DNA from: Marinilabiliales bacterium
Lineage (GTDB): Bacteria; Bacteroidota; Bacteroidia; Bacteroidales; PUMT01
DNA: 36,342 nucleotides
Assembly: GCA_007695015.1 (NCBI GenBank)
Contig: REEN01000115.1
Coordinates: 1-36,342 of the forward strand
Direction of reading: 5' to 3'
A program made the position numbers and the translations under genes. The notes beneath the pieces were generated by a model. That model saw only the letters and a program-made list of their open reading frames with translations, did not search any database and was not told the DNA's origin. This document shows positions 11,348 through 28,984 of this stretch, one piece after another; the stretch's first letter is position 1, and every line of letters begins with the position of its first letter.

Positions 11348-11400
11348 ATCGATTTTTTTTGAAGTTCAGGTCCCGGCAGTCCCCGGTGATTATAAGCAGC

Positions 11401-11570
11401 CCCGGCCATTCTCGTCAGAACCCGGACCCATTGCAGGTTCCGGCCATTCTCGTCAGTCACCGGCTCCTTTGCCGGTCCCGGCCATTTTTGCCAGACCCGG
11501 CCATCCTCGTCAGAACAAGCCATTTTTGCCAGACCTGGCCAGGTTCATCAGGCGCTGCCATGCTCGCCAG
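11401..11570. repeat. Degenerate tandem repeat, about 19-nt unit, nine copies
   Basis: Units of 17-21 nt follow one another with the approximate consensus CCCGGCCATTYTYGYCAGA. The clearest copies start at 11401, 11439, 11477, 11496 and 11516; copies at 11421, 11460, 11534 and 11553 are more worn. It is a minisatellite located just upstream of serS, with no spacer between units, so it is not CRISPR. Confidence 0.75.
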
Positions 11571-11580
11571 TTCCAAAAAT

Positions 11581-13124: not shown

Positions 13125-14726
13125 ATGCAAAGGACTATTTTAATTGTTATGGCAGCATGCCTTATGTTGCTGTCCGCTACCTCCGTATATGCCCTGCAGA
13201 GAACTGATTCGGCCGGTCCAATCACTGCTGCCAGTATGCAGGAAGCCACCCCGCCGGAAATTGGTGATGGTGTTGCCGGACAGGATGGCACATTGCCGGG
13301 TGGCGGGCCGGCCGCACAGGATGCCTCGCTTCTTGATGATACCACTTGGCAGGAGCCTGTGCAGCAAGCCACCGGATCAGCCAGCACGGCTGCCGGCCAC
13401 AATGTTGACCTCCCTCCGCCCGATGATTTCGGCTTCAGTTTCGTGACCCTGATTCGGGGACTGTTCGGTATGCTGGTGCTGATTGCCATAGCCTGGTTAT
13501 TTTCAACCAACCGTAAAGCAATATCATGGAAGGTGGTGGGTACCGGACTGGCTATTCAGCTCATACTTGCGTTCAGCATCCTGCAGATACCCATAGTGCA
13601 CAGCTTCTTTGAGTACGTCGGAAAGATATTCGTTGTGATGCTCGATTTCTCCAAGGCGGGAACCGATTTCCTGTTTGAGGGCTTCCTCGATACCTCGACA
13701 TACGGGTACCTCTTTGCTTTCCAGGTCCTGCCCACGATAGTCTTTTTCTCAGCCCTCACCAGCCTTCTTTTCTACCTGGGGGTCATACAGAAAGTTGTCT
13801 ACGCACTTGCATGGCTTATGACCAGGGCACTGCGTATTTCAGGTGCAGAGAGCCTTTCCGTTGCAGGCAACATCTTTCTGGGGCAGACCGAGTCACCGCT
13901 CATGATCAAAGCCTACCTCGAAAAGATGACACGCTCAGAGATACTGCTTGTCATGACCGGAGGTATGGCAACAATGGCAGGTGGCGTACTTGCAGCATAC
14001 ATCAGTTTTCTAGGCGGTGATGACCCGGTGCAGAGACTTATTTTTGCCAGGCACCTCATTGCTGCGTCGATAATGGCGGCTCCGGGGGCGGTCGTCATAT
14101 CCAAAATACTGGTGCCGCAGACCGAGAAAATAGACAAGACTATGGAGATTTCACGGGACCGTATAGGCAGCAATATCCTTGACGCCATATCAAAGGGCAC
14201 GGGCGAGGGGCTGCGCCTGGCTGTCAACGTAGCTGCCATGCTGCTGGTATTTATCTCCTTCATTGCCATGTTCAACTTCATAGTGGGCAAGATAGGCGAC
14301 TGGACATCCCTCAACTCTGCGATCAGCAGCATGACAGGGGGACAGTATGACAGGCTCTCACTGCAGTTCATCCTGGGCTACACCTTTGCCCCTGTTATGT
14401 GGCTCATTGGTGTCAGCCTGCCCGACATAACCCTGCTGGGCCGACTGCTCGGAGAGAAGGTCATCATGACCGAGTTCATAGGTTATGTGAGTCTCGCCCA
14501 GCTGAAGGAAGCAGGCGCCTTTGCAGATCCGAAATCAATAATCATAGCCACTTACATGCTGTGCGGCTTCGCAAACTTTGCCAGCATCGGGATACAGATA
14601 GGCGGTATAGGATCACTTGCCCCCGGCAAGAGGGTGCTGCTGTCGCAGTTCGGTATACGGGCGCTGCTCGGCGGCACCCTTGCAGCCCTCATGTCGGCCA
14701 CCATTGTGGGGGTAATTCTTGGTTAG
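13125..14726 (+). CDS. Concentrative nucleoside transporter (CNT/NupC family)
   Basis: This inner-membrane protein of 533 residues imports nucleosides with sodium or protons. The CNT signatures are GQTESPLMIKAYLEKMTRSE in the central region, TGGMATMAGGVLAAYISFLG, and near the C-terminus CGFANFASIGIQIGGIGSLA. About nine or ten hydrophobic segments follow residue 105. Unusually, the protein starts with a signal-peptide-like stretch (1-24) and an 80-residue Ala/Gly/Pro-rich segment (25-100) before the first core helix; E. coli NupC has neither. This would place a soluble domain outside the cytoplasm if the leader is cleaved. It follows the DUF151 gene by 11 nt. Confidence 0.93.
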   Translation: MQRTILIVMAACLMLLSATSVYALQRTDSAGPITAASMQEATPPEIGDGVAGQDGTLPGGGPAAQDASLLDDTTWQEPVQQATGSASTAAGHNVDLPPPDDFGFSFVTLIRGLFGMLVLIAIAWLFSTNRKAISWKVVGTGLAIQLILAFSILQIPIVHSFFEYVGKIFVVMLDFSKAGTDFLFEGFLDTSTYGYLFAFQVLPTIVFFSALTSLLFYLGVIQKVVYALAWLMTRALRISGAESLSVAGNIFLGQTESPLMIKAYLEKMTRSEILLVMTGGMATMAGGVLAAYISFLGGDDPVQRLIFARHLIAASIMAAPGAVVISKILVPQTEKIDKTMEISRDRIGSNILDAISKGTGEGLRLAVNVAAMLLVFISFIAMFNFIVGKIGDWTSLNSAISSMTGGQYDRLSLQFILGYTFAPVMWLIGVSLPDITLLGRLLGEKVIMTEFIGYVSLAQLKEAGAFADPKSIIIATYMLCGFANFASIGIQIGGIGSLAPGKRVLLSQFGIRALLGGTLAALMSATIVGVILG

Positions 14727-14822
14727 CAACCCCGTGGCAAATGTGACAGCCTTCACTGCAGGGTTTATACTGTCCCTTAAAGAACGGGAAAAATGTGCCG
14801 GAAGCTCCCGGCACAAAAACTA

Positions 14823-14867
14823 CCGCAGGCTGCCGGCATAAAAAAACCCCGCACCGCAGTGCAGGGT
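14823..14867. repeat. 45-bp direct repeat, left copy
   Basis: It is identical to 16074-16118 at 44 of 45 positions; the only difference is A at 14840 versus G at 16091. It begins CCGCAGGCTGCCGGCAT and includes most of the terminator hairpin. The two copies bracket the fasciclin gene. Confidence 0.9.
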
Positions 14868-14869
14868 TT
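14840..14869 (-). terminator. Intrinsic terminator of the fasciclin gene
   Basis: On the minus strand AAACCCTGCAC pairs with GTGCGGGGTTT around a TGCG loop (one wobble), followed by a T tract. A second hairpin with arms GTGCCGG and CCGGCAC near 14796-14815 lies further downstream and may act as a backup or serve the converging transporter gene. Confidence 0.85.
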
Positions 14870-14893
14870 ATCCGGATTATTCCGGCTGCCGGG

Positions 14894-15826
14894 TCAGGGC
14901 AGTAAAACAGCATCGATAACGTGCACAACACCATTCTCTGCCTCAATATCAGCAACGGTAACCTGCGCATCGTTAATGAACACGTTACCGTTCGTTATCG
15001 ACACTGTTATATTATTGCCCTCGAAAAGGGTCTCAAAATCATCGCCGTCTGAAAGATCGCCCGACATAGCTTTTGCTGCTACTACGTGGTACAGAAGTAT
15101 GTTGGTCAGATCGCCTGAGGGATCTTCAAGAAGAGATTCCACTGTGCCTGCCGGAAGAGCATCAAATGCGGCATCGGTCGGCGCAAATACAGTGAACGGC
15201 CCTTCTCCCGAAAGAGCATCAGCAAGTCCGGCTGCAACAACAGCGGCAGTGAGCGTGGTGTGGTTTTCGCTGCCAACGACAATGTCAACAACTGTGGCAG
15301 GCTTGGGTGCCTCAGGTATAAGAACAGCATCGATAACGTGCACAACACCATTCTCTGCCTCAATATCAGCAACGGTAACTTTTGCATCATTTATAAAGAC
15401 TCCCTCCTGGGTTATGCTGATTGTAAGTTCATCTCCGAATACAGTAGGAACCTTCATCCCGTTGCTCAACGATCCAGACATGGCTTTGGTTGCAACAACA
15501 TGGTAGAGCAGAATGTCGGTCAGCGCCCCTGAGGGATCCTCAAGAAGTGACTCAACAGTGCCATCAGGCAATGCAGCAAATGCAGCGTCTGTAGGTGCAA
15601 ACACAGTATAGGGGCCCATCCCCTGAAGCGTTTCAATGAGGCCAGCGGCAGTAAGAGCAGCGGCCAACGTAGTATGATCATCACTACCTGCTACTATATC
15701 TACGACAGTTTCAGGCCTTTCATCTATAGGACCTGTATCATTGTCATCTTCACAGGAAGAAAATGAAAATACAAAAAATCCCAGTAATACTATCAGAGCT
15801 TTGTAACTCAGAATTTGATTTTTCAT
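14894..15826 (-). CDS. Fasciclin-domain lipoprotein (two FAS1 domains)
   Basis: This is a surface or periplasmic lipoprotein of 310 residues, probably involved in adhesion or matrix contacts as for other FAS1 proteins. The leader ends with the lipobox FSSC, so Cys25 is lipidated. An acidic spacer (EDDNDTGP) is followed by two FAS1 domains (about 40-172 and 175-310). Each carries the H1-type block GPYTVFAPTDAAFAALP or GPFTVFAPTDAAFDALP, the YHV motif (ILLYHVVA), and ends NGVVHVIDAVLIP or NGVVHVIDAVLLP. The domains are clearly tandem duplicates, and a 57-nt stretch near the end of each is still identical in DNA. The gene stands alone, has its own terminator, and is bracketed by a 45-bp direct repeat. 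Confidence 0.95.
   Translation of the reverse strand: MKNQILSYKALIVLLGFFVFSFSSCEDDNDTGPIDERPETVVDIVAGSDDHTTLAAALTAAGLIETLQGMGPYTVFAPTDAAFAALPDGTVESLLEDPSGALTDILLYHVVATKAMSGSLSNGMKVPTVFGDELTISITQEGVFINDAKVTVADIEAENGVVHVIDAVLIPEAPKPATVVDIVVGSENHTTLTAAVVAAGLADALSGEGPFTVFAPTDAAFDALPAGTVESLLEDPSGDLTNILLYHVVAAKAMSGDLSDGDDFETLFEGNNITVSITNGNVFINDAQVTVADIEAENGVVHVIDAVLLP
14907..14963. repeat. 57-bp identical tract, copy in FAS1 domain 2
   Basis: This is identical to 15323-15379 over 57 nt. It encodes the C-terminal part of the FAS1 domain (VTVADIEAENGVVHVIDAVL). Sequence outside the tract has drifted. Confidence 0.9.
15323..15379. repeat. 57-bp identical tract, copy in FAS1 domain 1
   Basis: Partner of 14907-14963, 416 bp away, in the same orientation. 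Confidence 0.9.
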
Positions 15827-16073
15827 GATTGCAGTCTTTTAATTTTTATTTGGATTATTTTAATCTACAAACATCGCCAAACTGCATTTGTTCATTTTAT
15901 TTTATTTTTCATTAAACATTTGTTGTGCTCCGCAATAATCAATCAACATATTCCTATGATCAAATCTCTATATTAGAGGGTCTTTTGTCGAATTACTCCT
16001 GATTTAACATTTTTATAAAATATTTTTTGTCTATGCAACAAAATATTTCAATAAACAATGTCACGACAGCCAT

Positions 16074-16118
16074 CCGCAGGCTGCCGGCATGAAAAAACCC
16101 CGCACCGCAGTGCAGGGT
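16074..16118. repeat. 45-bp direct repeat, right copy
   Basis: Partner of 14823-14867, offset by 1251 bp, same orientation, one mismatch. It includes the pgi terminator hairpin. Confidence 0.9.
16091..16118 (-). terminator. Intrinsic terminator of pgi
   Basis: On the minus strand ACCCTGCAC pairs with GTGCGGGGT around a TGCG loop, followed by six T. It lies 57 nt after the pgi stop and is nearly identical to the fasciclin terminator. Confidence 0.8.
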
Positions 16119-16174
16119 CTCCTGAAAATGGACGCGGCAAGCCGTTATTTCAATCGCCCCATTATTTGCAAACC

Positions 16175-17530
16175 TCAGGCTTCCAGCCTCTTGTAAATAA
16201 GCTCGGTCTCCTCCTCGAAGCCCGGTTTACGGAGCAGCGCGAACATATTGTTCTTGTAGGCCTCGACGCCCGGCTGGTCAAACGGATTGACATTCATAAG
16301 GTAACCGCTTATGGCGCAGGCCTTCTCGAAAAAATACATAAGCTGTCCGAGATAGTATTCATTCAGCTCCGGCAGCTTGATGAGGATGTTCGGCACCCCG
16401 CCGTCAACATGGGCCAGCATCGTACCCAGCTCAGCCATCTTGTTTACATAATCGATCCTCCTGCCTGCAAGGAAATTCAAACCGTCGCCGTCATCCGCCT
16501 CTTCAGGTATTTCAACATTCCGCACCGGTTTCTCTATTGAGATCACCGTCTCGAAGAGGTTGCGCTGACCCTCCTGTATATACTGGCCCATCGAGTGAAG
16601 GTCGGCCGTAAAGTTCACGCTTGCAGGAAAAATACCCTTCTTCTCCTTGCCTTCGCTCTCGCCGTAAAGCTGCTTCCACCACTCAGCCAAATAAAGCAGT
16701 TTGGGGTGGTAGCTGGCCAGTATCTCGTTTTTCGGACTTTGCCGGTACAGTGCATTCCTCGCGGCGGCATACAATGCAGAGGGATTATCCCAAAATGGTG
16801 TTCCCGGACCGGTCATCTCCTCCATTTTCCTTGCACCGGCAACCAGTTGCCGGATGTCAAAACCTGCCTGCACTATGGGAAGCATTCCAACCGGGGTAAG
16901 AAGTGAATACCGTCCCCCTACGTCGTCAGGAATTACGAATGACCTGTATCCCCTCTGGTCAGCCAGTTTTCTTAGTGCGCCCCTGTTGGCGCTGGTTATG
17001 GCGATGATCCTTTTTCCGGCCTCCTCCTGCCCGTATTTCTTCTCAAGGTGGTTGCGGAGAATACGGAAGGCTATTGCAGGTTCGGTCGTGGTGCCGGATT
17101 TGGAGATAACCGTAATGGCATAAGATATCCCATCTAAAAAGTCGACCAGCTCGCCCAGGTAGTCCTCGCTGATATTCTGCCCGGCAAATACTATGCGCGG
17201 GAACTTCCTGCCGCCGTTGGTGCACATGCCGAAGGAGTGCGTCAGGGCGTCAATGACCGCTTTAGCACCCAGGTAGGAGCCGCCGATCCCCACTACCACC
17301 ATGACATCGATCTTCTTATTCAGCCCGGCTGCAAGATCTTCAAGCTCTTTCAGAGATTCTTCTGTAATCGAAGAGGGCAGGTCAAGCCAGCCAAGGAAAT
17401 TGGCCCCTTTGCCGGTGCGCTGGTGCAGATGGCGTATATGGTAGTTTGTAAGCTCCTCATAGCCGTCCAGTGTCTCTTTCGGTATAAATGGAAAAACATT
17501 TTCGATATTAACTTCAAGATTCTTCATCAT
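16175..17530 (-). CDS. pgi: Glucose-6-phosphate isomerase
   Basis: This cytoplasmic enzyme interconverts glucose 6-phosphate and fructose 6-phosphate in glycolysis and gluconeogenesis. At 451 residues it is the short bacterial form, as in Bacillus and Bacteroides, rather than the 550-residue E. coli type. The sugar-isomerase signatures are [16 protein letters not shown] (81-96), [14 protein letters not shown] (143-156) and [13 protein letters not shown]. The Glu-containing [13 protein letters not shown] and the terminal [15 protein letters not shown] complete the active site. The start may be the ATG at 17530 or the next codon at 17527. It follows gpsA by 138 nt on the same strand; lysS-gpsA-pgi is a conserved order in Bacteroidales. 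Confidence 0.97.
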
Positions 17531-28830: not shown

Positions 28831-28853
28831 GAAATTATCAGCACCGGTATTCC

Positions 28854-28949
28854 GGCGTTCTGGTATTGCCGGGGACCGGTAATGCGGCGTTCTGGCTTTG
28901 CCGGGGCCCGGTAATGCGGCGTTCTGGCTTTGCCGGGGCCCGGTAATGC
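28854..28949. repeat. Tandem repeat, 32-nt unit, three copies, upstream of obgE
   Basis: Units 28886-28917 and 28918-28949 are identical; 28854-28885 differs at three positions. A worn fourth unit starts at 28950. The unit begins GGCGTTCTGG and contains GCCGGGGCCCGG. No spacers occur between units, so it is a minisatellite and not CRISPR. Confidence 0.9.
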
Positions 28950-28984
28950 GGCATTACGGCAGCGCCAAAATACCGGCATTTGTT

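Follow-up and report, generated by a model that had tools for sequence, protein, structure and literature searches.

A direct repeat carrying a predicted terminator brackets a fasciclin gene beside pgi, and the closest relative lacks the gene

What is to be made of two neighbouring bacterial genes that end in nearly the same 45 bases? The question arises on contig REEN01000115.1 of a soda-lake Marinilabiliales bacterium (GenBank assembly GCA_007695015.1), of which positions 1 to 36,342 were analysed; this whole stretch of 36,342 nucleotides is called the window here. In it a fasciclin gene of the cell-surface adhesion type (14894-15826, minus strand) lies between pgi, which encodes glucose-6-phosphate isomerase (16175-17530, minus strand; PF00342), and a nupC-like Na+ nucleoside transporter gene that is convergent with the fasciclin gene (13125-14726, plus strand; PF07662, PF01773 and PF07670). 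The fasciclin protein of 310 residues has two FAS1 domains (PF02469 in two stretches, 7e-79) and a lipoprotein-like N-terminus with a lipobox recognised by eye. Beyond nupC on one side lies bfn (bifunctional nuclease), and pgi, gpsA and lysS follow on the other, lysS having been named by eye from its translation. Pfam searches of five window proteins found no integrase or transposase among them. A sequence-only reading of the window had proposed that the gene is a cassette gained or lost beside pgi, and that one recombination between the flanking repeats would remove it and leave pgi with a terminator.

The bracketing repeat proved to be as described. Positions 14823-14867 and 16074-16118 are identical at 44 of 45 nt, the sole difference (A/G) being at position 18, and the two copies lie 1251 nt apart from start to start. 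A 27-nt core was found at two places in the window when up to three mismatches were allowed, and no match came up in 100 dinucleotide-shuffled versions of the window. On the minus strand both copies resemble intrinsic (rho-independent) terminators in having a GC-rich predicted stem (at least 11 pairs), a 4-nt loop and a U run. When folded as 61-nt segments the two gave energies of -25.8 and -31 kcal/mol, values equalled by 2 and 0 of 200 shuffles, respectively. Copy 2 (14823-14867, minus strand; hairpin 14844-14869 plus a GC-rich tail) starts 26 nt past the fasciclin stop codon and copy 1 (16074-16118, minus strand) 56 nt past that of pgi, the 56-nt interval being 16119-16174 (minus strand). 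The view that each copy terminates the gene it follows is thus borne out to the extent that terminator-like hairpins stand behind both genes, with transcription termination at either copy a prediction from folding. A simple terminator pattern scan listed only one of the two copies, that behind the fasciclin gene; a second terminator-like hairpin after that gene (14794-14815, minus strand) also came from the terminator scan. A third, partial copy of the first half of the terminator lies near nupC (14754-14768, minus strand; 14 of 15 bases, 0 of 300 shuffles). A longer duplication that takes in the flanks of both copies was rejected, since the likeness of the flanks is at shuffle level (776 of 1000 shuffles downstream, 544 of 1000 upstream and 460 of 1000 upstream without the stop codons).

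Dispersed repeats of the REP, BIME or MITE type are palindromic intergenic sequences found near gene ends. The present repeat differs from these in copy number. In the genome of the window (G000; 3,416,348 bases in 118 contigs) the 45-mer was found at three or fewer mismatches in these two places only, and a looser stem pattern likewise gave two places across the genome. A common or dispersed terminator element was therefore rejected; the sequence-only reading had recognised that a 45-mer at many unrelated gene ends would be such an element and not a cassette border, and the search for further copies that it proposed returned none. A blast-type search of G000 with the surrounding 101 bases gave two extra weak matches, one of 83% over 36 nt and one of 17 nt exact (mostly outside the 45-mer). 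The former, on contig C64, is a similar but different terminator and no further copy. We also surveyed direct-repeat pairs (at least 30 nt, at least 90% identity, within 6 kb) in 17 stretches of G000 (332,400 bases) and in the window. The fasciclin/pgi pair was the only one with copies more than 100 nt apart and both mostly outside reading frames of at least 100 residues; the sample contained one other such pair, its copies 79 nt apart. What sets the fasciclin/pgi pair apart from ordinary intrinsic terminators is that a stretch of 45 bases is common to the ends of two adjacent genes, and no other gene-end pair of this kind was found in the 332,400 bases sampled.

The relatives speak to whether the gene is a recent arrival. 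The named relatives within the genus are all metagenome-assembled genomes (MAGs) of Bacteroidales or Bacteroidetes, most with CSSed labels, which PMC6704655 uses for Cock Soda Lake sediment. Twelve of the 13 genus genomes have pgi, with none in G003, and in eight (G000, G001, G004, G005, G007, G008, G010 and G011) the pgi contig carries a fasciclin gene downstream of pgi. The linkage probably extends to G006 and G012, for a total of 10 of 13: in both, the pgi contig ends before the fasciclin gene and the fasciclin contig begins at that gene. Two genomes, G009 and G002, have no fasciclin gene at the pgi locus, and G002 (75% complete) gave no FAS1 match anywhere and no nupC match. Outside the genus no fasciclin gene (E 1e-5) was found at any of 69 pgi loci, with at least 1.5 kb of sequence behind pgi in 59 of them and at least 5.5 kb in 46, and no fasciclin match at 1e-30 was obtained in the three genomes from the other genus of the family. 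Divergence of the gene also resembles that of its neighbours. Between G000 and G010, DNA identity is 81.9% over 758 nt of the fasciclin gene and some upstream sequence, 79.6% for pgi and 82.6% for nupC. A newly gained cassette was therefore rejected, as a fasciclin gene adjoining pgi is the usual state of the genus; the part of the cassette proposal that concerned loss fared better and is partly supported by G009.

In a tree built from pgi, gpsA and bfn, G000 and G009 were sisters (100/98) inside a clade with G006 and G010 (100/99), both of which carry the fasciclin gene; many of the other forks were weak, 7 of 15 being open. Mapped on this tree, fasciclin presence and absence required three changes over 18 rows, with the six outgroup rows scored as absent from their available stretches and G006 and G012 scored as present. 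A single gain at the root of the genus, followed by losses in G002 and G009, would account for this distribution. The simplest reading of these comparisons is that the fasciclin gene is old at this place and that G009 lost it. The fasciclin tree placed G005 together with G000, G010 and G006 (100/99), a clade from which G005 is excluded by the other genes, and owing to this different placement exchange of the fasciclin gene within the genus is possible. In G001, G007, G012 and G002 no nupC separates bfn from the fasciclin gene (or from pgi), so the interval from pgi to bfn gains and loses more than one gene. The number of FAS1 domains varies across the genus.

Comparison of the sequences behind the two genes indicated which copy is the older. 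After the fasciclin gene a CCTGCA or TGCAGG arm was found in all nine genomes compared (G000, G001, G005, G006, G007, G008, G010, G011 and G012), although G011 matches the pattern with its second arm only. Searched for at three or fewer mismatches, the 27-nt core turned up in three of the 13 genomes of the genus: G000 has it at two places, and G006 and G010 have a single occurrence each, behind their fasciclin genes. In the pgi spacer the picture is different. CCCTGCA or TGCAGGG was found in G000 alone among the nine, with none in the eight fasciclin-bearing relatives (the spacers of G006 and G012 being incomplete), and the pgi spacer of G004 has neither motif. The pgi spacer of G009, which stands outside the nine-genome comparison, contains TGCAGGG. 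The longest exact stretch common to the pgi and fasciclin spacers is at most 9 nt in the eight other genomes compared, and behind pgi G006 has instead a strong CCGG-type hairpin (-33.5 kcal/mol). Thus, a terminator of this kind belongs to the fasciclin gene in the relatives examined, and the copy behind pgi appears to be derived, a later arrival, which speaks further against a gained cassette.

The G000 pgi spacer seems to retain something of what copy 1 joined. The first 130 nt after pgi show no likeness to G006 or G010 (160 and 762 of 1000 shuffles, respectively). However, the tail of copy 1 together with the next part of the spacer (16052-16088, minus strand) aligns to the terminators that follow pgi in G006 (0 of 500 shuffles) and G005 (1 of 500). 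Without the copy 1 tail the alignment is weaker (13 of 500 against G006 and 87 of 500 against G010), and the whole G000 spacer up to the fasciclin gene aligns with that of G010 (0 of 500). We infer that 16052-16088 is what remains of an older pgi terminator. Given the G006 and G005 tail alignments, copy 1 was seemingly set at the edge of that terminator with the original spacer kept before the fasciclin gene. The 15-nt tail of the 45-mer also weakly resembles a stretch after the G006 fasciclin terminator (63 of 500 shuffles; 6 of 500 when the stretch is shortened). As the tail resembles the old pgi terminator and, more weakly, this G006 stretch, it may have been copied in either direction.

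The sequence-only reading had suggested looking for a relative without the fasciclin gene and with a single terminator, and G009, the closest relative of G000 (pgi 95% identical), is such a genome. Its order is gpsA and pgi, then 56 nt, one CCCTG...CAGGG hairpin and nupC. At -12.1 kcal/mol the fold of this hairpin is weak, and 12 of 200 shuffles reached the same stability. From the pgi stop codon to the terminator, the 56 nt of G000 and those of G009 align without a gap and agree at 34 of 56 positions (0 of 1000 shuffles); no match to G009 was obtained with the G000 flank on the fasciclin side (103 of 1000). The G009 hairpin and the bases that follow it match copy 1 at 27 of 40 positions (1 of 1000 shuffles), and their match to copy 2 is of similar quality (5 of 1000). 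The terminator matches either G000 copy at only 20 of the 27 core bases, and the core was not found in G009 at three or fewer mismatches. The arrangement found in G009, one terminator and no fasciclin gene, is what removal of the gene by recombination would leave, although this terminator differs from the 45-mer itself. On the other side, nupC lies 9 nt from the 45-nt stretch in G009 versus 96 nt in G000. Owing to this difference G009 is no clean crossover product of a G000-like allele, and the history must also include later changes or an ancestral spacer that was shorter. The equal 56-nt flank argues that the pgi-side terminator most likely predates the G000-G009 split; 20 of 27 in G009 against 44 of 45 between the G000 copies argues for homogenisation or fresh copying in G000 after it. 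No window-type fasciclin gene or fragment of one was found elsewhere in G009 (85% complete). The other FAS1 matches of G009 lie in frames of 521 to 776 residues on contig C76 and have far lower scores. Both genomes also carry another FAS1 gene, whose product has a sorting-type tail at the C-terminus, and in each it sits at contig ends (the start of C43 and the end of C28 in G000, the end of C37 in G009). The FAS1 scrap at the end of G009 C37, considered as a possible leftover, is the end of this different gene, with the sorting-type tail and 93% likeness to G000 C43.

We consider one history moderately probable from these alignments. A fasciclin (FAS1 lipoprotein) gene would have been long resident between pgi and nupC, and its intrinsic terminator would have been copied, in the ancestor shared by G000 and G009, to a site behind pgi that borders on the older terminator of that gene. 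Along the lineage of the window the two copies would then have been homogenised to 44 of 45, by conversion or by fresh copying. With direct copies 1.25 kb apart, the fasciclin gene could be removed by replication slippage or recombination, leaving pgi with one terminator. G009 would be the most likely product of a deletion between the copies, for which recombination between them is a plausible route. Each of these steps (the copying, its direction for the 15-nt tail, the homogenisation and a G009 deletion by way of these copies) we infer from present-day sequences.

The competing explanation that survives best, although we think it unlikely, holds that two unrelated events took place: an illegitimate deletion in G009 that left a CCCTG-type terminator at pgi and, later, a duplication of the terminator in G000. 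It would account readily for copies that are 44/45 alike within G000 set against 20/27 core bases between G000 and G009. It accounts poorly for the 56 nt that separate the pgi stop codon from the terminator in both genomes with an ungapped flank, and for the finding that none of the eight fasciclin-bearing relatives has CCCTGCA or TGCAGGG in its available pgi spacer.

Rather improbable is a second alternative, in which the loss had already occurred in the G000-G009 ancestor and G000 regained the gene from a relative, integration at the terminator making the repeat. Integration by recombination at the terminator would yield near-identical copies, and the nearer position of G005 in the fasciclin tree than for other genes points to possible movement of the gene within the genus. 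Arguing the other way, the spacer before the fasciclin gene aligns along its full length with the G010 spacer (0/500) and, tail included, with the G006 and G005 pgi terminators. A fasciclin divergence from G010 like that of the neighbouring genes also argues against regain, although the donor may have been equally distant.

A third alternative, which we rate just below the second, concerns only the origin of copy 1 and not the later deletion, and its probability overlaps with that of the favoured history. Copy 1 would be the footprint of a lost tandem fasciclin gene, the order pgi, fasciclin, terminator, fasciclin, terminator having become pgi, terminator, fasciclin, terminator. G007 offers a precedent: two fasciclin genes stand in tandem behind its pgi, and a TCCTGCA/TGCAGGA stem comes after each. 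However, the 56 nt before copy 1 are unlike the 26 nt between the fasciclin stop codon and copy 2 (460/1000 shuffles). The second G007 gene has four FAS1 domains in a 611-residue frame. Finally, that an assembler merely skipped the fasciclin gene in G009 is very improbable: several of these MAGs do have FAS1 genes at the ends of contigs and G009 is 85% complete, but the CSSed16 assemblies used k up to 121 (PMC6704655), longer than the repeat, and no stray fragment of the gene was found in G009, the C37 scrap being part of another.

The favoured history, of ancestral terminator copying followed by deletion in G009, has a counterpart in known systems. In PMC2884548, repeats were reported to flank 10 to 18% of the variable segments in three species, most of the repeats being shorter than 30 bp, with slippage as the proposed mechanism. 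The locus resembles these microdiversity loci in that a segment with direct-repeat flanks is present or absent at one place, deletion between the repeats being what that text proposes. The fasciclin gene is present on the pgi contig in G000 and seven others and absent at the locus in G009 and G002, and the occupied G000 allele has direct repeats. The differences are that PMC2884548 compares strains of one species with repeats mostly under 30 bp, whereas here related species are compared and the repeat is a 45-bp terminator. The fasciclin/pgi locus thus looks like ordinary repeat-assisted gene loss of a known kind, the detail here being that the repeat is a terminator. It suggests one simple way for an accessory surface gene to be lost while the neighbouring gene stays terminated. 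The case is a small one, in which a prediction from one sequence was borne out by a relative, and it leaves the broader picture unchanged. Doubtful as a general reading, though worth stating, is the idea that terminators act as portable seams: a hairpin would be copied to the end of a neighbouring gene, conversion would preserve the likeness of the copies, and the intervening gene could be cleanly removed with the neighbour's transcription end unharmed. If this were true, gene-end hairpins would shape which genes get lost. A literature search on terminators as sites of recombination or gene loss, judged from titles, found nothing on point.

Several further features of the window were observed. 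Within the fasciclin gene a 57-nt exact repeat joins the end of FAS1 domain 2 (14906-14962, minus strand) to that of FAS1 domain 1 (15323-15379, minus strand). The longest exact stretch between FAS1 domains is 57 nt in G000, 71 nt in G006 (between two of its three domains) and 15 nt in G005, and the identical domain ends look like the result of conversion between domains. Upstream of the fasciclin gene lies an AT-rich element (15887-15918; TGTTTAAT ... AAATGAACA) that is similar in G010 and G005 and partly so in G006 and G001; it occurs once in G000 at three or fewer mismatches and is possibly a promoter or regulator site. Elsewhere in the window a degenerate repeat cluster of the CCGGCCATTCTCGTCAG type (11382-11573), with spacings of 19 nt and multiples thereof, lies immediately before an ORF recognised by eye as serS-like, and GC-rich repeats at 28844-28960 have a 32-nt period with three copies in register.
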